Shown: positions 1 through 22,511 of the stretch, in pieces
How positions within the stretch are numbered: the first letter of the stretch is position 1
How the letters are laid out: each line of letters starts with the position of its first letter
NCBI RefSeq assembly: GCF_003268885.1
Contig: NZ_QLSX01000008.1
Coordinates: 1-64,000 of the forward strand
Length of the DNA: 64,000 nucleotides
Source of the DNA: Onishia taeanensis
GTDB lineage: Bacteria > Pseudomonadota > Gammaproteobacteria > Pseudomonadales > Halomonadaceae
Direction: 5' to 3'
The notes under the pieces: model-generated
The model's input: only the letters and a program-made list of their open reading frames with translations
What the model was told of the DNA's origin: nothing
The model's database searches: none
Made by a program: the position numbers and the translations under genes

Positions 1-450
1 CCGTTCACCGCCCAGATAGGCGTCATCCAGCTCGATGCGTCCAGAGAGCTTTTCGCCCTGGTTGTGCTCATGCATGACCTGCAGCAGCTTGTGCTTGAGC
101 TTCCAGGCGGTGTTGTAGCTGACGCCGAGTTCCCGGGACAGCTGCAGCGCTGAGATGCCGCTCTTGCGCTGGGTCAGCAGATAGATGGCCAGAAACCAGG
201 TGGTTAATGGCAGGTGCGTGGCATGGAAGATGGTACCGGCGGTCAGCGAGGGTTGATGATGGCAGCGATGGCACTGGTAGAGCCCCCGCGACAGCTGGCA
301 GCCCGTGTTGTTGCCGCAGTCGGGGCACACGAACCCCCTAGGCCAGCGATGCTGGAAGAGGGCTGCCTGGCACTGCGCTTGGGTGCCGTACTGCTCGAGA
401 AATGCCGGCAGCGACAGGCCGGGCTGGAACTGGATAGGATTGCGTGCCAT
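1..450 (-). CDS. IS1595-family transposase, N-terminal part (runs off the window)
   Basis: This is the first 150 codons of a transposase continuing beyond base 1, so its C-terminal catalytic residues are not visible. The start is an ATG at 450 preceded by a strong AGAGGAGG ribosome site. An N-terminal zinc ribbon is seen (CPDCG, then CHRC about 18 residues later), followed by a helix-turn-helix-like segment (SALQLSRELGVSYNTAWKLK). Next comes IELDDAYLGGE, which matches the first acidic position of the ISXO2-like DDE domain found in IS1595 transposases. The reading frame is intact to the edge. It lies just downstream of the DGQHR gene in an AT-rich segment, consistent with a mobile region. The exact IS end between 451 and 512 could not be fixed. 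Confidence 0.85.
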   Translation of the reverse strand, partial: MARNPIQFQPGLSLPAFLEQYGTQAQCQAALFQHRWPRGFVCPDCGNNTGCQLSRGLYQCHRCHHQPSLTAGTIFHATHLPLTTWFLAIYLLTQRKSGISALQLSRELGVSYNTAWKLKHKLLQVMHEHNQGEKLSGRIELDDAYLGGER

Positions 451-512
451 GACGCGACCTCCTCTACTGGACATAACATCAGTATAGGAGAGCCTGGCGA
501 GATGGTGGCTGA

Positions 513-1685
513 TCAACATGAGTAATCAGGAAACTCTTTCAGAGTCCTATAAAGGGCAGCCTCGCCACTTGATCCTGGCTTATAATTTTCAGTCGTGAAA
601 TGATCGTCTTCAAGATTGATCTCCTCAAGAATACTCAAGAAATCCTCTTTCCTTGGCACCTCTTTTTCTAAGTATAAATAAGAATCCTTTAAAAGCCTCA
701 TCAATGCCATAAACCCGTTCGTCTTATTAAGCATCACACCTTTATGCTCAGACTCCCAAGCATCGGGCCATCTCTCCTTCACAGCCGAAAAGTAATTCCA
801 AATAATATCGGTAAGCTCAAAATCTTTCTTCTGAATCATGAAATCTCGAAAGATAAGCTTCTTCTCTTCGCGCCCTGACGCTGGAGGTATTGACTTCTTT
901 CTTATATAAAGATCTCTATCATATTGAGGGTTAGAGCTAACGTACTTCATCAGAGATTCTACAAAAGCAGCCTGCGTGATAGCACCAGGAATACTATGTG
1001 GTCCAGCAACACCTAAGCGCTTGATCCTATTTTCAAGGGGGCTACCGTCAGTGCTATTTAATGCTACCGCGATCTGGTGGCATAGCTTTTGTGGGCTTCG
1101 TGATTCAGCGAGCTCAAAAAGGTCGTAAAGAAGGCTTTTATTGATTTTTGTCTGAGCAATATTCACCGTTGAAAAAAGATATGCCTCCGAAGCGACATCA
1201 ATATCAACAAAAATAGATACATTGACTTCAAAAGCCTCTTCCCCCTTGTAACCTTGCAGACCAGCTATACGGTGCTGACCATCGATAACTTTGGCGATTT
1301 TGTGAAGAGGAATGTCCACATCACCTTCTTCGTCAGTTTCACGATGGTAAGGCTCAAGAACAAGAACGTTTTTATCTTCATCAAAAAAAGCACACCGAGA
1401 GTCTACGGAAATAATAACAGCTGTTGGAAAGCATGCATCAGCAGTATTTACATAATCAGCAATCTCTTTACTTCTTTTCTTACTAAGAGGGCGCTGAATA
1501 CCCAAATAGCTTTCAAAGCCACGCTCGCCTTCAATCCTTCTTACGTCAGTGTGAGTTATCTCTATTAAATCATTTGAATCTATGGCGCCGACAAAAAATT
1601 GCCCTAAAGGCTGACTGACAGGAACACAATTTAATTCGACGCGACCTTCGGCTCTAGCCGTGGGAAACTCCTTTTGAGAAAACAT
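513..1685 (-). CDS. DGQHR-domain protein (DndB-like family)
   Basis: A 390-residue protein with the motif DGQHR at residues 135-139 inside KVIDGQHRIAGLQGY. This is the hallmark of the DGQHR domain known from DndB, the regulator of DNA phosphorothioation, and from many orphan relatives in mobile DNA. The flanking NIAQTKINKSLLYDLFEL is also typical of the family. The gene is preceded by GGGAAGAGGA and its ATG lies two bases after the stop of the upstream membrane-protein gene, so the two are co-transcribed and probably translationally coupled. Base composition is clearly AT-rich compared with the housekeeping genes that follow. No dndACDE genes are visible. A DNA-binding or defence role is an inference; the substrate is unknown. 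Confidence 0.75.
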   Translation of the reverse strand: MFSQKEFPTARAEGRVELNCVPVSQPLGQFFVGAIDSNDLIEITHTDVRRIEGERGFESYLGIQRPLSKKRSKEIADYVNTADACFPTAVIISVDSRCAFFDEDKNVLVLEPYHRETDEEGDVDIPLHKIAKVIDGQHRIAGLQGYKGEEAFEVNVSIFVDIDVASEAYLFSTVNIAQTKINKSLLYDLFELAESRSPQKLCHQIAVALNSTDGSPLENRIKRLGVAGPHSIPGAITQAAFVESLMKYVSSNPQYDRDLYIRKKSIPPASGREEKKLIFRDFMIQKKDFELTDIIWNYFSAVKERWPDAWESEHKGVMLNKTNGFMALMRLLKDSYLYLEKEVPRKEDFLSILEEINLEDDHFTTENYKPGSSGEAALYRTLKEFPDYSC

Positions 1686-1687
1686 AC

Positions 1688-2263
1688 TTATCCTCTTCCC
1701 TTCACATGGGCCGCATAGCTATTTGCGTACTCTTTATTTTGATCGGACATCACTTCACCCGGATCTTTTTTCTGAGTATTATTATAGTAAATAACACCAA
1801 AAAGCATGACACATGAAACAACCACAGAGATCCATGACGAATGCATCAAAATACTTGTATCAGTGCTACCCGGAGACTTGACGCTAATATACAAAAGCCC
1901 CCACCAAGCACAAAAAGAGAACAAAGAAATCTGAATAATCCCTTTGAATTTTATAGGAGGATCACCGACCACCGAGTATGCTACAGGCCCCAACAGGGCT
2001 ATAGAGGCAATCAACACCTCTCCATCAGAAAAGTTGGCATAGAGCGCATCATGAAGCGTCGTTGATTCATTAAAAGTTAGCCATAAAACACTCAGGCCGA
2101 TTGATGCAAAGGCAAACAGCGCCGTGATCAAGAATTCGAAAAAGCTTGATGCTACCCTCTTCCTAAGAGCTCGCTTTACGTCAAAAAGGCTCATGCCATT
2201 ATCACACCCATTTGCCAATATTTGAGACCAAAAACATGCCCGAATCTCCTGCGTAAAATGCAT
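1688..2263 (-). CDS. Four-helix membrane protein of unknown function, paired with the DGQHR gene
   Basis: A 191-residue protein with a basic N-terminal segment (KRALRKR) and four hydrophobic stretches at about residues 40-65, 84-103, 109-128 and 145-165. A charged cytoplasmic-looking tail (NNTQKKDPGEVMSDQNKEY) follows. I do not recognise the family. It is the first gene of a two-gene operon; its stop lies two bases before the ATG of the DGQHR gene. The start is uncertain: the ATG at 2263 has no good ribosome site, and an internal ATG at residue 24 (MSLFDVKR) would keep all four helices. The gene is AT-rich like its partner. A membrane effector role is possible but only inferred from the pairing. 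Confidence 0.6.
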   Translation of the reverse strand: MHFTQEIRACFWSQILANGCDNGMSLFDVKRALRKRVASSFFEFLITALFAFASIGLSVLWLTFNESTTLHDALYANFSDGEVLIASIALLGPVAYSVVGDPPIKFKGIIQISLFSFCAWWGLLYISVKSPGSTDTSILMHSSWISVVVSCVMLFGVIYYNNTQKKDPGEVMSDQNKEYANSYAAHVKGRG

Positions 2264-2313
2264 TTAATTAATTTTAATCAACTAACCTGCCCAATCCGAA
2301 TCTCACATCGCCC

Positions 2314-2508
2314 CTAGGTATCCAGGTTTTTCATGTCCTGCGGCTTGATCAACTCCTTCTCGCAGCGCTGGTTGTCGCTAATCAGCAGCCAAGCGCCGCC
2401 GCCGACACGCCGCTGCACGCGCATACTGTGCCGCTCACCTAGCGTGGCCCCCTTCCGGCTGTACTCACCAACTCCCAGCCGCTTTTGGAGGACTAACGTC
2501 GTACTCAT
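2314..2508 (-). CDS. Small hypothetical protein, 64 residues
   Basis: The ATG is preceded by GAGG at a good distance (TGAGGTCATA before the start), which is the main reason for calling it. The product is basic and soluble-looking, with a central stretch GERHSMRVQRRVGGGAWLLI and no membrane segment. I do not recognise a domain. It stands upstream of the membrane/DGQHR pair in the same direction, separated from it by about 50 bases, and could belong to the same transcript. Its base composition is higher in GC than that pair, so it may have a different origin. Confidence 0.4.
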   Translation of the reverse strand: MSTTLVLQKRLGVGEYSRKGATLGERHSMRVQRRVGGGAWLLISDNQRCEKELIKPQDMKNLDT

Positions 2509-2809
2509 TATGACCTCAGCTTTGGCGTGGTCACAGCGTTCAGAATGCTCATCAAGTTCGCCCCCATGATTGGTATTACATCAGGTTGACAGTATCGAAA
2601 GCCAAGGCGGCTGTCATTACCGAATCAGGTAAAAGCAAACCTCGACGGAAATGGTATACGGGAAGAGAAGCGCTCAGGAAATGCAGGTAATTGGAAGACG
2701 TTCAGGAATGAACTGAGAAAAGACGACCCAAAGGTGTGGCTCAAAGTGTAGGTCAAAAAGATACAGAAAAAGAAAAAGCCGCTGAAATCAGCGGCTTTCT
2801 CGATATTCG
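2509..2809. other. Gene-poor stretch beside tRNA-Ser, possible gene remnant
   Basis: No intact gene is evident. On the plus strand two overlapping frames look codon-like for about 35 and 20 residues (one containing KPRRKWYTGREALRK, the next NWKTFRNELRKDDPKVW before a stop near 2750), as if a gene tail had been frameshifted. I could not identify it. The tRNA-Ser terminator occupies the right end. Confidence 0.3.
2771..2800 (-). terminator. Rho-independent terminator of tRNA-Ser
   Basis: On the minus strand AAAGCCGCTGA and TCAGCGGCTTT form an 11-bp perfect stem with a two-base loop, followed by a T-rich run. It lies about ten bases after the tRNA 3' end. Confidence 0.85.
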
Positions 2810-2897
2810 TGGCGGAGGGGGAGGGATTCGAACCCTCGAAGCCTTTCGACTTACACACTTTCCAGGCGTGCTCCTTCGACCACTCGGACACCCCTCC
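2810..2897 (-). tRNA. tRNA-Ser (GGA anticodon)
   Basis: Minus-strand cloverleaf of 88 nt including encoded CCA. The acceptor arms are GGAGGGG and CCCCTCC with discriminator G. The anticodon loop CTGGAAA gives GGA. The long variable arm expected for tRNA-Ser lies between the anticodon and T arms, and the T loop TTCGAAT is present. A promoter with near-consensus boxes lies about 55-80 bases upstream and a hairpin terminator downstream, so it is a single-gene transcript. It marks the boundary between the AT-rich accessory segment and the housekeeping DNA. Confidence 0.95.
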
Positions 2898-2950
2898 GCA
2901 ATTTTTAGCTCTGCCGTGGGGGCTGCGCCTTCCGCGTCAGAACGGCGCAT

Positions 2951-2979
2951 ACTATATCGAGATCAGGCGGCGATTGCAA
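2951..2979 (-). promoter_or_regulatory. Promoter of tRNA-Ser
   Basis: Minus-strand TTGCAA (2979-2974), 17-base spacer, TATAGT (2956-2951), then a GC-rich GCGCC discriminator as is usual for stable-RNA promoters under stringent control. Confidence 0.75.
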
Positions 2980-3006
2980 GCCGGGCGCGAAATTTTCCCA
3001 ATATCT

Positions 3007-3489
3007 TCAGGGCAATACCGCATAGTCGCCGCGAGCGGTAAGGCACAGAGTGTCGTCGCAGTAGAGCTCTTGAACTAGCGCGATGCGTCCCTTGCCACGG
3101 CTGGCGAGGCGGTCGGCCAGGGTCACCTGCCCTTCCCGGTCTTCCGGGCGGCACAGGATGCGGTAGTCGCCGCTCACCGGCGCCTTGAAGCGCTGGCTGG
3201 CGTCGGCGACCACCACGTTTTGCTCGCGACCCCGGGAGCGCAGCCAGAGCGTGACCCAACTCCAACCGATCAGGGTGGTCTGGGCGGCCAGCGAGCCGCC
3301 AAAGCCGGTGCCCTTGTCGTTGAGGTTGGGCGCAAGCGACAGCGACCACACCAGTGTGTCGTCCTGCCAGTGCATATCCTGAATGCCCAACTGCGACACC
3401 AGCGGAATAGCCGCCTCTAGCCAGTCCCGAAAGGCGCTCAGGTCATCGCCCTGCCCGGCCGCAGGCAGCGGCAGACGCGGATGCAGCAC
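3007..3489 (-). CDS. YiiD C-terminal-domain type putative thioesterase
   Basis: About 160 residues resembling the hotdog-fold thioesterase domain found at the C-terminus of E. coli YiiD. The characteristic part is LNDKGTGFGGSLAAQTTLIGW, with the glycine-rich helix start typical of hotdog thioesterases. No acetyltransferase domain is attached, unlike in YiiD itself. The GTG at 3489 is chosen because GAGG precedes it by five bases; a GTG at 3504 would add five residues. It follows the nitroreductase gene by a few bases and is probably co-transcribed with it. The substrate is unknown. Confidence 0.75.
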   Translation of the reverse strand: MLHPRLPLPAAGQGDDLSAFRDWLEAAIPLVSQLGIQDMHWQDDTLVWSLSLAPNLNDKGTGFGGSLAAQTTLIGWSWVTLWLRSRGREQNVVVADASQRFKAPVSGDYRILCRPEDREGQVTLADRLASRGKGRIALVQELYCDDTLCLTARGDYAVLP

Positions 3490-3507
3490 ACCCACCTCAC
3501 GCACGGC

Positions 3508-4068
3508 TCAGGTCCAGCGCTCGACGAAGTCGGCCGGGTCGCGCTCCGGCAGCGGCTTGTGGCGCCCGCCCATCTGCCCCAGGTACAGGAAAGCCACCAG
3601 CTCGTCGTGCTCGCCAAGCCCCAGGCCCTTCTTCACCGTGGGGTCGAAGGCGTAGTGGCCGGTGCGCCACATCGCGCCTAGCCCCAGCGCCTGGGCCGCT
3701 AGCAGCATGCCATGGGCGGCGCAGCCGGCAGAAAGCGACTGCTCGAGGGGCGGCACCTTGGGCTGGTCCGGCGTGATCTTGGCAACCACGGCGATGATCA
3801 TCGGCGCCCGCAGCGGTTTCTTGCGCGCGGCGTTCAGGGCGGCATCGTCGATATGCGGGTTGTTGTGGAACTCGGCCTCGGCGAATAGCTCGCCTAGGCG
3901 GGTAAGCCCCTCACCCGAGAACTCGATAAACCGCCAAGGAGTGAGCTCCTTGTGATCCGGTGCGCGCAGGGCGGCGCGGTAGATGGCATCCAGCTGGTCG
4001 GCGTCGGGGGCCGGGCTGCACAACTTGCCCATGGAGCTGCGTTCATGCAGCAGCGTCATTGCATCCAT
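3508..4068 (-). CDS. Nitroreductase family protein, YdjA-like
   Basis: A 186-residue single-domain flavoenzyme of the small YdjA-type nitroreductase group, which use FMN and NAD(P)H. Family features are the early PDHKELTPWRFI (substrate/FMN loop), the middle segment SAGCAAHGMLLAAQALGLGAMWRTG and the C-terminal FLYLGQ. The length equals that of E. coli YdjA (183 residues). AAGGAG lies seven bases before the ATG at 4068. The thioesterase-like gene follows immediately. The physiological substrate of this group is not established. Confidence 0.85.
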   Translation of the reverse strand: MDAMTLLHERSSMGKLCSPAPDADQLDAIYRAALRAPDHKELTPWRFIEFSGEGLTRLGELFAEAEFHNNPHIDDAALNAARKKPLRAPMIIAVVAKITPDQPKVPPLEQSLSAGCAAHGMLLAAQALGLGAMWRTGHYAFDPTVKKGLGLGEHDELVAFLYLGQMGGRHKPLPERDPADFVERWT

Positions 4069-19168: not shown

Positions 19169-19375
19169 ATGAAACGACAGAAACGTGATCGCTTCCAGCG
19201 CGCTTATGTTCACGGTTACAAGGCAGGGGTCAGCGGCCGTTCCCGTGATGAATGTCCCAGTCAGGATGTCAATCTTCGCGAATACTGGATGAGCGGTTGG
19301 CGTGAAGGTCGAGGGGATCAATGGTCGGGCATGACAGGCGTGTCCGGCATTCACAAAAATCCCATGGTCATGTAG
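19169..19375 (+). CDS. rmf: Ribosome modulation factor
   Basis: Small basic protein that converts 70S ribosomes to inactive 100S dimers in stationary phase. The family start MKRQKRDRFQRAYVHGYKAG is conserved, as are GRSRDECP and the YWMSGWREGRGD segment. At 68 residues it is longer than E. coli RMF (55) because of a C-terminal extension after the conserved GWREGR. AGAGG lies about nine bases before the ATG. A strong terminator follows and pyrD converges on it; the rmf-pyrD proximity is conserved in many gammaproteobacteria. Confidence 0.93.
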   Translation: MKRQKRDRFQRAYVHGYKAGVSGRSRDECPSQDVNLREYWMSGWREGRGDQWSGMTGVSGIHKNPMVM

Positions 19376-19516: not shown

Positions 19517-20539
19517 TCAGTCGGCGGCAAGCTTCAATGCCCGGGCGCATTCGCCCACCAGGGGCGGGCCACGATAGATGAAGCCCGAATAGAGCTGCAC
19601 CAGATCTGCCCCGGCCCGACGCTTGGCCACCGCCGCCTCGCCGCTGTCGATACCGCCGACGCCGATGATCGGCATGTCCGGCAGCCGGCGCCGCAGTTCA
19701 CGAATCACACGATTGGACGATTCAAATACGGGACGACCGGAAAGGCCCCCCGCCTCATCGGCGTGGGGCTGCCCGGTCACGGCATCGCGCGCCACCGTAG
19801 TGTTGGTGGCGATGACCCCATCGATGCCGTTGGCGACCAGCGCCTCGGCCACCAGGCCGACCTCCTCGTCGCTCATGTCCGGCGCGATCTTGACCGCCAG
19901 AGGCACACGCCGACCGCTGTCATGATCGAGTCGCAGGCTTTTCTCGCGCAGCGCACCGAGCAATCTGTCCAGATGCTCGCCGAACTGCAGGTTGCGAAGC
20001 CCTGGCGTGTTGGGCGAAGAAATATTGACCGTGATGTAGTCGGCGTGGGCATGCACCCGCTCGAGACAGAACAGATAGTCGTCGACGGCCTGCTCCACCG
20101 GGGTGGTCAGATTCTTGCCGATGTTGATACCGATCAAACCGTCATAGCGGCTCTTCTTGACCCGGGCAATCAGGTGCTCGACGCCTGAATTGTTGAAGCC
20201 CATGCGGTTGATGATCGCCCCGCTCTCGGGCAGGCGAAACAGGCGTGGCTTGGGGTTGCCCGGCTGCGGCTTGGGGGTGACGGTGCCGACCTCGACGAAG
20301 CCGAAGCCGAGGGCGCCAAGGGCATCAAGGTGATCGGCATTCTTGTCGAGCCCAGCGGCGAGGCCCACCCGATTGGGGAAGCGCAGTCCCATCAGCTCGA
20401 CGGGATCGTCGACCCGCGCGCCGCCGCCCAACTTGCCAGACAGGCCCAGGCGATGCGCCATATCGAGCGCCATCAGCGTCACGCCATGGGCAGTCTCGGG
20501 ATCAAGGCGAAAGAGGATCGAGCGGGCGGCGGCGTACAT
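19517..20539 (-). CDS. pyrD: Dihydroorotate dehydrogenase (quinone), class 2
   Basis: Membrane-associated flavoenzyme of pyrimidine synthesis that oxidises dihydroorotate and reduces quinone. The 340-residue length and N-terminal helix ([19 protein letters not shown]) are those of class 2 enzymes (E. coli 336). Seen are [31 protein letters not shown], the catalytic serine in [23 protein letters not shown] and [33 protein letters not shown]. The ATG at 20539 has AGGGAG six bases upstream; the open frame before it is not family sequence. It stands alone. Confidence 0.95.
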
Positions 20540-20685
20540 GGCACTCCCTAAACTGGTGAACACGAACGAAGCAACGCACACGAGTGAGCCACCTCGGATA
20601 ACATCGCGGATGGCAACATGGCGGATAGCAACGTCGCGGGTAGAAAAAGCGGCGGGGATTATAGCGCATCGGCCCCATTAACGAC

Positions 20686-20708
20686 GAACCCCGCGCGAAG
20701 CGGGGCCG
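20686..20708 (-). terminator. Terminator after the ferritin-like gene
   Basis: Minus-strand CCCCGC, loop TTCGC, GCGGGG followed by TTCGT. A short but GC-rich hairpin about 45 bases after the stop; the T tract is weak. Confidence 0.5.
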
Positions 20709-20752
20709 TCGATAATATGGGTAATCAGGGGAAATCACACAGCCTGTCTGGC

Positions 20753-21043
20753 TCAGTGGGCGATCTCGCCGTCGGTAAACAGGAATTCCCGAAGATGCGC
20801 ATCCAGCGTCTTGTCCTGGCGACGGAGCCACTCCAAGGTCATGACCGCATGCTCCTTTTCTTCATCCCTGTTATGAATCAGTATCTTGCGTAACTCTGGA
20901 TCCTGACAGGCATCGACACGCTGGTTATACCAATCGACCGCCTCCAGTTCCTCCATTAGCGAAACGATGGCCCGGTGATAATCGCGGGTAGCGGCGCTAA
21001 GTTCTTCCACCGGCTCGTGATAGCTGTCACTGCTGCCTGCCAT
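20753..21043 (-). CDS. Encapsulated-ferritin-like (EncFtn) protein without encapsulin
   Basis: A 96-residue protein closely matching the encapsulin-associated ferritin family, which oxidises iron at a site shared between two subunits. The motifs of the R. rubrum protein are present at the same numbering as I recall it: E32, W38 and Y39 in MEELEAVDWYNQR, then E62 and H65 in NRDEEKEHAVMTLEWLRR. The protein ends directly after the ferritin core (FLFTDGEIAH) and lacks the C-terminal tail that carries the encapsulation peptide. No encapsulin gene is adjacent: pyrD lies downstream and mgtE diverges upstream. AAGGAGAGG precedes the ATG. It probably works as a free ferroxidase or iron-handling decamer, which is inference. 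Confidence 0.85.
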   Translation of the reverse strand: MAGSSDSYHEPVEELSAATRDYHRAIVSLMEELEAVDWYNQRVDACQDPELRKILIHNRDEEKEHAVMTLEWLRRQDKTLDAHLREFLFTDGEIAH

Positions 21044-21155
21044 GGGCCTCTCCTTTTGTGGTCTACTGGGTGTATCCAACGTTAGGCCAAAGCGGCGTCG
21101 CTGTCAGCTTTCACCGTCAACGCGGCCACGCCCCGCTTCATCTCAGGGAGATCCT

Positions 21156-22511
21156 ATGACCGACACCACTGACACCCTGGAAGGCCGGCTATCGCGCATT
21201 CATGAAGCCCTGGTCGATAATGATTTCGCCGTCATCGACGAGGTGCTCGATGACCTCGAACCGGCTGAGATCGCCCTTCTGCTCGAATCCCTGCCTCTGT
21301 CCGCGCGTACTCGGCTATGGGAACGGGTTTCGCAGGACGTCGACGGCGAAGTCCTGCTGCACGTCCATGATGAGGTTCGCAGCACCCTGATCGAGGACAT
21401 GGACGACCATGAGATCGTCGCCGCCACCTCGAACATGGACACCAGCGACCTGGCCGAACTCTTCGAGGACCTGCCTCAACAGGTCGCCGAAGACATGCTG
21501 CGCTCGATGGACGAGCTGCAGCGCGCGCGTCTCAAGGAAGCGCTGGCCTTCGAGGAAGATTCCGCCGGCCGTCTGATGCGCACCGACACCGTCAGCGTGC
21601 GTGCCGACGTGACGCTCGAAACCGTGCAACGTTTCCTGCGCTGGAAAAACCAGTCCATCCCCGACAACACCGATGCCCTGATGGTGGTCGACCGCAACGG
21701 CGTCTTCCTGGGCGTGCTGCCGCTGGCTCGGCTGGTCTCGCAGTCATCGGAGCTTGCCGTAGCCGACGTGCTGGAAAGCGACATCGACAGCGTATCGGTG
21801 ACCATGAAGTCGTGGGACGTGGCCACCCTCTTCCAGACGCACGATCTTGTGTCGGCGCCGGTGGTCGACGAGCACGGCCTGCTGCTGGGGCGCATCGTCA
21901 TCGAGGACATCGTCGACGTCATCCGCGAGGGCTCGGACCAGGCACTGATGAACATGGCCGGCCTCGACGAGGAAGAGGACCTGTTCGCCCCGGTCATTCC
22001 CAGCGCCAAGCGCCGGGCGGTGTGGCTCGGCATCAACCTAATGACGGCCTTCCTGGCGGCTTGGGTGATCGGCCGCTTCGAGGCAGCGCTCGATCAGATC
22101 GTCGCCTTGGCGGTGCTGATGCCCATCGTCGCCAGCATGGGCGGCATCGCCGGCAGCCAGACCCTGACCCTGGCGATTCGCGGCCTGGCGCTGGGTCAGA
22201 TCAGCCGCACCAACAGCAACTGGCTAATGCGCAAGGAAATCGGCATCTCGTTGATCAACGGCGTGCTGTGGGCACTGGTGGTCGCCGTGATCGCCACCCT
22301 GTGGTTCCAGGATGTGCGCATTGGCGGCATCATCGCCGTTGCCCTGGTCATCAACATGCTCGCGGCCGGCATCGCCGGCATCGCCATTCCCCTTGGCCTC
22401 AAGCGTCTGGGCATCGATCCAGCACTGTCGGGTTCTGTGGTGTTGACCACCGTCACCGACGTGATCGGCTTCATGGCCTTCCTGGGCCTGGCGACGGTCT
22501 TCCTGCTGTAA
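21156..22511 (+). CDS. mgtE: Magnesium transporter MgtE
   Basis: Inner-membrane Mg2+ channel gated by cytoplasmic domains. The 451-residue protein has the N-terminal superhelical MgtE domain (to about 125), a CBS pair (about 130-250, with MVVDRNGVFLGVLPL and PVVDEHGLLLGRI) and five C-terminal transmembrane segments, including the pore sequence LAVLMPIVASMGGIAGSQTLTL. The ATG at 21156 has AGGGAG upstream. It diverges from the ferritin-like gene, so both may share a regulatory region. Mg2+ binding between the domains closes the pore in the characterised homologue. Confidence 0.93.
   Translation: MTDTTDTLEGRLSRIHEALVDNDFAVIDEVLDDLEPAEIALLLESLPLSARTRLWERVSQDVDGEVLLHVHDEVRSTLIEDMDDHEIVAATSNMDTSDLAELFEDLPQQVAEDMLRSMDELQRARLKEALAFEEDSAGRLMRTDTVSVRADVTLETVQRFLRWKNQSIPDNTDALMVVDRNGVFLGVLPLARLVSQSSELAVADVLESDIDSVSVTMKSWDVATLFQTHDLVSAPVVDEHGLLLGRIVIEDIVDVIREGSDQALMNMAGLDEEEDLFAPVIPSAKRRAVWLGINLMTAFLAAWVIGRFEAALDQIVALAVLMPIVASMGGIAGSQTLTLAIRGLALGQISRTNSNWLMRKEIGISLINGVLWALVVAVIATLWFQDVRIGGIIAVALVINMLAAGIAGIAIPLGLKRLGIDPALSGSVVLTTVTDVIGFMAFLGLATVFLL

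Follow-up and report, generated by a model that had tools for sequence, protein, structure and literature searches.

A short, tail-less member of the encapsulated ferritin family in Onishia taeanensis and the occurrence of this form without an encapsulin shell

The first 64,000 nucleotides of contig NZ_QLSX01000008.1 of Onishia taeanensis (RefSeq assembly GCF_003268885.1; this whole stretch is called the window below) carry a gene for a short protein of the encapsulated ferritin (EncFtn) family. Comparison with other genomes reveals that this short form prevails in the order to which the organism belongs, and that it generally lives without a shell. Because the di-iron residues of the window protein are intact, a C-terminal tail is missing, no encapsulin is detectable in the genome and the gene is under strong purifying selection, we favor, with a probability of about 0.6, a reading in which this family member (s-FLP) functions outside any shell as a cytosolic detoxifying ferroxidase and iron buffer, and neither as an iron store nor as encapsulin cargo. 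The original prediction had described a shell-free EncFtn homologue and had regarded the tail-less orphan as an oddity. The first part of this interpretation stands; the second does not, as the short form is a recorded, poorly studied class of which the window protein is an ordinary member.

Identity and conservation of the window protein

The window protein matches the Pfam family PF22277 (EncFtn-like) with 146.5 bits against a cut-off of 27, and no other Pfam family reaches its own cut-off in this protein. The NCBIfam profile TIGR04535, 'encapsulin-associated ferritin-like protein', is matched with 137.1 bits against a cut-off of 125; the match spans profile positions 1-88 of 114, so that the part missing from the window protein is the profile's end. 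The ferroxidase residues E32, E62, H65 and Y39 are all retained, together with W38, as are E31 and E34 of the entry site and H57, E61 and E64 of the putative exit site, residues named in PMC5012862. The C-terminus reads FTDGEIAH, with the last residue at position 96 and no targeting peptide. Profile scores and residues place the protein in the EncFtn family and confirm the original claim of a homologue with an intact ferroxidase site and no tail. Within the family, an EncFtn core with no long tail or apparent targeting peptide assigns it to the class called 'Non-EncFtn' in the tree of PMC5012862 (2016) and 's-FLP' in a 2024 review (PMC11202242). Encapsulin cargo of the FLP-TP type is marked by a C-terminal tail of about 10-40 residues with a targeting peptide and by an encapsulin gene that is adjacent or elsewhere in the genome, and the window protein has neither.

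A monomer model calculated with AlphaFold2 from a 16-row alignment has a mean predicted local distance difference test score of 84.4, with low confidence for residues 1-8 and the last few, and comprises helices at residues 17-45, 49-76 and 78-88, which correspond to the two long antiparallel helices and short third helix of the EncFtn fold. Compared with the PDB, the model fits 3k6c best (E-value 9.3e-09, 66% identity) and then 5n5f and 5da5-type chains. Judged by sequence, the closest proteins of solved structure are the EncFtn of Rhodospirillum rubrum (Rru_A0973, 5da5) and NE0167 of Nitrosomonas europaea (3k6c; 126 bits with phmmer). NE0167 shares with the window protein a length of 95-96 residues, the missing tail, the IAH ending and identical di-iron residues, and differs from it in sequence divergence only; its crystal structure, apo and unpublished, forms decamers (PMC11202242). 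The R. rubrum protein has the same core, ferroxidase residues and entry and exit sites, but works with encapsulin.

Strong purifying selection is evident within the genus, where the ratio of nonsynonymous to synonymous substitution rates (dN/dS) lies between 0.025 and 0.083 in the 10 pairs among five intact copies; the first three codons were excluded, and the row of G001 has two N-terminal codons out of register, which raises its values slightly. The sequence AAAGGAGAGG precedes the start codon and is identical or nearly so across the genus. In G003, a sixth member of the genus, the EncFtn gene occupies the corresponding position but its reading frame is disrupted: the Y39 codon lacks a base, and additional sequence is present downstream. 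This broken copy (locus L071, contig C1 around 802412-802709) lies between mgtE and pyrD and reflects either decay or an assembly fault. Further broken copies occur in two other genomes of the order (G160, G232), and outside the genus the gene is carried by two of the 31 family genomes searched (G026, G030). Given the low dN/dS and this patchy and partly broken distribution, the gene is useful where it is kept, and many relatives either lost it or never acquired it.

Tails and shells across genomes

The genome that contains the window (G000; 3,736,068 bases in 30 contigs, 100% complete) gave no match to the encapsulin family PF04454 (Linocin_M18) at E ≤ 10, in a search that produced matches in 4 of 14 control genomes, including Thermotoga maritima. 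The earlier statement that no encapsulin gene flanks the EncFtn gene, which lies between mgtE and pyrD, is thus borne out and extends to the whole genome. The SrpI-like family PF19307, which we take to be the family-2 encapsulin, was searched for in this genome only and likewise gave no match at E ≤ 10, a weak test in that the control matched in one of 14 genomes, below the cut-off.

The relation between tail and shell was followed in a set of 390 genomes from the order and a set of 299 from the phylum, which share G000 and G055. In the order set PF22277 matched in 50 genomes, 49 of them above the cut-off; 43 genomes carry an intact short form and two a tailed one. Set aside were G105 (25 bits, below the cut-off; locus L070, no match), G266 (gene at a contig end) and the broken copies of G003, G160 and G232, while a second, weaker copy in G414 (L069) is included among the 44 short loci and not counted as a genome. 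The 43 intact short forms reach at most 8 residues beyond the end of the window protein. Encapsulin (PF04454) is present in two of the 390 genomes, G327 and G386, in each case directly beside the tailed EncFtn, whose tails of 40 and 34 residues end in LGIGSLRGA and FTIGDLKGK; none was detected in the 43 genomes with an intact short form.

In the phylum set PF22277 matched in 29 of 299 genomes, 19 of them above the cut-off; the 10 loci below it (L173-L182) proved on reading to be no match and were left out. Besides our own locus, 18 remain, of which two are tailed (G541 and G675, both beside encapsulin) and 16 short. Six genomes of this set match encapsulin, five above the cut-off: G541 (two copies), G675, G463, G479 and G679. 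G679 has no EncFtn match, and in G463 and G479 the shell gene lies elsewhere in the genome and not beside the EncFtn-like gene. The EncFtn-like proteins of G463, G479, G527 and G667 make up a distant group of four, with scores of 83-86 bits and an end about 10 residues longer. Their common ending reads GDIVKAGExGEKKVD (L169-L172), and two of the four genomes have encapsulin elsewhere.

A third set was formed by the genomes of the 80 most similar of at least 577 confirmed relatives (gamma- and betaproteobacteria and a few alphaproteobacteria). All 80 of these named genomes carry the short form, in a sample that leans toward it because its members were picked by similarity to the query; at least two are also in the order set (L108 = G212, L119 = G352), so that this count and that of the order set overlap in part. 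Encapsulin occurs in three of the 80 (1 of 33 and 2 of 47) and is absent from 77, an absence that is less certain in this set, many of whose members are metagenome-assembled genomes (MAGs). The three are Sulfuricella sp. T08 (L132/L190), a Thiogranum MAG (L086/L221) and a Hydrogenophilales MAG (L118/L222), and in all three the shell gene adjoins a second, long-tailed EncFtn, with the ends LTVGAMKGA, SLGIGSLRGENS and PTIGTLKEQST. The tailed relatives found have about 29-40 residues more than the window protein.

The original prediction had also raised the question of whether tail-less homologues form a clade, and the answer is mixed. In a tree of 143 cores and 93 columns, which has unsettled bootstrap values and no known root and is read for coarse grouping only, six tailed rows share one clade (support 96/96) with five tail-less rows (G650, G653, G431, G055, G222), and this clade belongs, with 12 further short rows, to a group with support 99/90. 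The 128 short rows outside the 96/96 clade fall into a large, mostly unresolved set, and the four distant rows stand apart. A long-branch warning applies to L164, which groups with R. rubrum, and the tailed proteins of L221 and L222 are not included. The tail-less forms are thus not one clean clade in this tree: the five may have lost the tail, or tails may have arisen repeatedly.

Five residues, E32, W38, E61, E64 and H65, occur in all 127 short rows compared, and E31, E34, Y39, H57 and E62 occur in 126 rows each. C46 is found in all 127 and H96 in 117. These figures are inflated by the selection of many rows for their likeness to the window protein. Of five tailed rows, two have C46 and none a histidine at position 96; the five nested tail-less rows have C46 in four cases and H96 in one.

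What these comparisons add is the genome-wide link between tail and shell, three genomes with both forms, which provide an internal comparison, and the association with a rubrerythrin cluster described below. TIGR04535 labels such proteins, the window protein included, as 'encapsulin-associated', and the 2024 review groups short forms with encapsulated proteins (PMC11202242); the genome counts point the other way, to a short form that is mostly shell-free. The role of the EncFtn ring without encapsulin thereby becomes a testable question.

Proposed function without a shell

By homology to 3k6c and 5da5, the chain of two long helices and a short one would pair with a second subunit through two bound iron ions, and ten subunits would assemble into an open ring. 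In the cytosol such a ring would take up Fe2+ with high affinity at its inter-subunit site and oxidize it with O2 or peroxide, which would lower free Fe2+ and Fenton chemistry; the resulting ferric iron might then go to bacterioferritin, be reduced again or remain in place as a cofactor. Bacterioferritin and Dps, which belong to the ferritin superfamily as EncFtn does, are closed storage cages. In homologues, by contrast, the EncFtn cores assemble into an open ring, and shell-less R. rubrum EncFtn has high-affinity site iron amounting to 10-15 Fe per decamer (PMC5012862). With so few irons held, ferric iron would not be stored in the ring.

This reading also draws on the iron-handling proteins of the genome, on the match of the model to 3k6c and on gene neighborhoods. 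The genome encodes two PF00210 proteins above the cut-off, one bacterioferritin-like and one Dps-like (157 residues), which are possible iron sinks and whose kinds were judged by eye. It also encodes a rubrerythrin-domain protein, at C5:40075. Neighborhoods were compared in 98 long loci, with Pfam names for the proteins of L095 and L160 and the others assigned by phmmer similarity to L095. In six of them a short EncFtn gene stands with homologues of rubrerythrin, a CCG-domain Fe-S protein (RFO) and DUF3501 (Sulfuriferula, Sulfuricella, Sedimenticola, Candidatus Thiodiazotropha, a Chromatiales MAG and an Ectothiorhodospiraceae MAG), and a seventh, short locus (G508, L160) has EncFtn with the Fe-S protein and DUF3501. 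In some species, then, the short form sits beside a peroxide-removing enzyme. The genes of all seven loci lie on one strand, with gaps of at most 165 bases between neighboring open frames; in six of them EncFtn is flanked by the Fe-S protein and DUF3501, and in L110 it comes after DUF3501. Two gene orders suggest a repeated association rather than a single inherited accident, although some rows are close relatives.

A three-gene cluster of aerobic-type rubrerythrin, RFO and DUF3501 has been linked to oxidative-stress defense (PMC5114695), and the seven short EncFtn genes lie within it or at its end, whereas the window gene has no such cluster beside it. The text of PMC5114695 contains no word starting with 'encapsul', and its Figure 3 legend has neighbors marked 'HYP'; nor was 'encapsul' found in the available part of PMC7760498. 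Among the papers listed from the open literature, none names in its listing a link between rubrerythrin or DUF3501 and encapsulated ferritin; one, PMC7465337, contains both 'DUF3501' and 'encapsul', once each.

Several points weigh against a shell-free detoxifying ferroxidase. Shell-less R. rubrum EncFtn is a slower ferroxidase than apoferritin and gave precipitates at higher iron (PMC5012862), which is awkward for a free cytosolic enzyme, and in the literature searched no short-form protein came with activity data, the only structure, 3k6c, being apo. The gene is patchy in the family and broken in three genomes of the order, as described above; the rubrerythrin link is confined to the seven loci and is not seen in Halomonas; and a very divergent shell could escape PF04454.

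The alternative that survives best, though we consider it doubtful, is a version of the shell-free reading in which the ring acts as an iron-loading partner and, by oxidizing Fe2+, supplies bacterioferritin or Dps with Fe3+ for storage. A candidate recipient of each kind is encoded in the own genome, and a PF00210 match (E ≤ 0.001) is found in 43 of the 49 order-set genomes with EncFtn above the cut-off, a count that covers EncFtn-carrying genomes only and in which G292 has a weak match only. The six genomes that lack a match, however, are all carriers of an intact short form, and four of them are 96-99% complete (G040, G052, G194, G253); transfer into a storage ferritin may thus occur in the own genome but is not a general route. 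No ferritin occurs among the 10 annotated neighbor clusters. G040, which is 99% complete, has two short EncFtn genes (C14:311008-311286 and C24:47965-48243) and no PF00210 match.

Rather unlikely, in our view, is a catalytic di-iron peroxidase or oxidase resembling rubrerythrin, whose iron is not released but serves as a cofactor, with RFO or another partner returning it to the ferrous state. The recurrent cluster with RFO and DUF3501, with rubrerythrin in six of the seven loci and in two gene orders, fits such an enzyme, as does the iron content of the R. rubrum homologue, which nearly equals the number of sites (PMC5012862). Against it, R. rubrum EncFtn had no peroxidase activity with ortho-phenylenediamine in the assays reported there (PMC5012862), and no partner of this kind lies beside the Halomonas gene. 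An extended form of the idea, which we hold equally tentatively, treats the short EncFtns as a shell-free branch of di-iron redox enzymes teamed with aerobic-type rubrerythrin and the Fe-S oxidoreductase; iron would be a reusable cofactor for which no store is needed, C46 and H96 would take part in the chemistry, and the shell would have been added in a single sub-branch.

It is very unlikely that the short C-terminus itself targets the protein to a shell as ordinary cargo. The motif LFTD(E/N)KPIAHE is given as a putative, uncharacterized targeting peptide in Table 2 of PMC11202242, where it is also argued that there is no steric bar to the encapsulation of s-FLPs, and a conserved ending of the form LFTDxxPIAH, with its frequent H96, would suit such a role. 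The review leaves encapsulation open; our genome counts argue against it. A shell gene that stands beside a tailed EncFtn in both encapsulin-carrying genomes of the order set, together with short-form carriers that are mostly without a shell (all 43 intact carriers of the order set and 77 of the 80 named genomes), speaks against the IAH end as a shell-targeting peptide, and in the named genomes that do have a shell gene it adjoins a different, tailed EncFtn. G463 and G479 combine a tail-less EncFtn-like protein with an encapsulin elsewhere, but their proteins belong to the distant group. As a general account the targeting-peptide idea looks unlikely.

We regard as highly improbable that the gene is a remnant of an encapsulin operon that has been lost, and is itself disappearing: the patchy distribution and the broken copies would agree with decay, but the dN/dS values within the genus, the conserved end and the abundance of the short form among the at least 577 relatives (the best 80 all short) do not. 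Least credible of all is a partnership with the magnesium channel MgtE, for instance in divalent-metal handling, to which the divergent mgtE neighbor in the genus and in Halomonas litopenaei might point: among the long loci mgtE is nearby only in these Halomonas-type loci, apart from a weak match 5.3 kb away in L101, the Halomonadaceae MAG T82-2 (L076) has pyrD beside its EncFtn gene and no mgtE match, and in a relative (G017) mgtE and pyrD adjoin with no EncFtn between them. Since mgtE is restricted in this way and adjoins pyrD in G017 without EncFtn, a functional link between EncFtn and MgtE was rejected. The neighbor looks local and incidental, without a visible functional message.

Gene surroundings and other observations

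The features around the EncFtn gene are listed in Table 1. No match to a sigma-70 consensus was found at the gene or in the intergenic stretch, and the best Fur-box-like site on either strand of 20991-21200 has 9 of 19 matches, compared with a mean best of 9.75 in 300 shuffles. The inverted repeat that follows the EncFtn stop codon is retained with changes in six rows of the genus, has no T run and is not listed in the terminator scan. Between it and pyrD lies GCTATAAT, which was read by eye and is retained in the same number of genus rows; this conserved upstream sequence suggests that pyrD has its own promoter.

Table 1. Features at and around the short EncFtn gene (positions in the window).
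Feature	Position	Strand	Remarks
Short tail-less EncFtn-family protein (s-FLP)	20753..21043	minus	ATG at 21043, stop ends at 20753; 96 residues plus stop codon; Pfam and NCBIfam matches, dN/dS
EncFtn/mgtE divergent intergenic stretch	21044..21155	.	112 bases; holds AAAGGAGAGG before the ATG
mgtE	21156-22511	+	divergent neighbor of the short EncFtn gene
G+C-rich inverted repeat	20683..20710	-	after the EncFtn stop; coordinates counted by hand
pyrD	about 19517-20539	-	neighbor on the other side of the EncFtn gene
Ribosome modulation factor gene	19169-19375	+	PF04957, 76.3 bits; just past pyrD

No general neighbor gene of EncFtn was found among the 98 long loci. The five largest neighbor clusters were set aside as shadows, as they have negative gaps and are judged to overlap the EncFtn gene in other frames; the next largest is a histone-deacetylase-domain gene in 12 of the 98 loci, with a representative from Marinobacter. 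A homologue of an MscS-type channel lies directly upstream on the same strand in six loci from Chromatiales or Xanthomonadales/Lysobacterales MAGs (L097, L109, L116, L120, L127, L147), with a 4-base gap in four of them and overlapping frames in the others. Homologues of an S30AE-domain protein occur within 450 bases of EncFtn in seven loci, mostly from Thiobacillus or Hydrogenophilales.

At the start of the window, the region noted at positions 513-2263 has a DndB/DpdB-like protein (Pfam DndB, 49.7 bits; PADLOC DpdB, 89.6 bits) and a 191-residue protein with no Pfam match. Positions 1-4000 are richer in A+T than the other blocks of the window (G+C fraction 0.527 versus 0.60-0.66), and this region is possibly part of a defense island.
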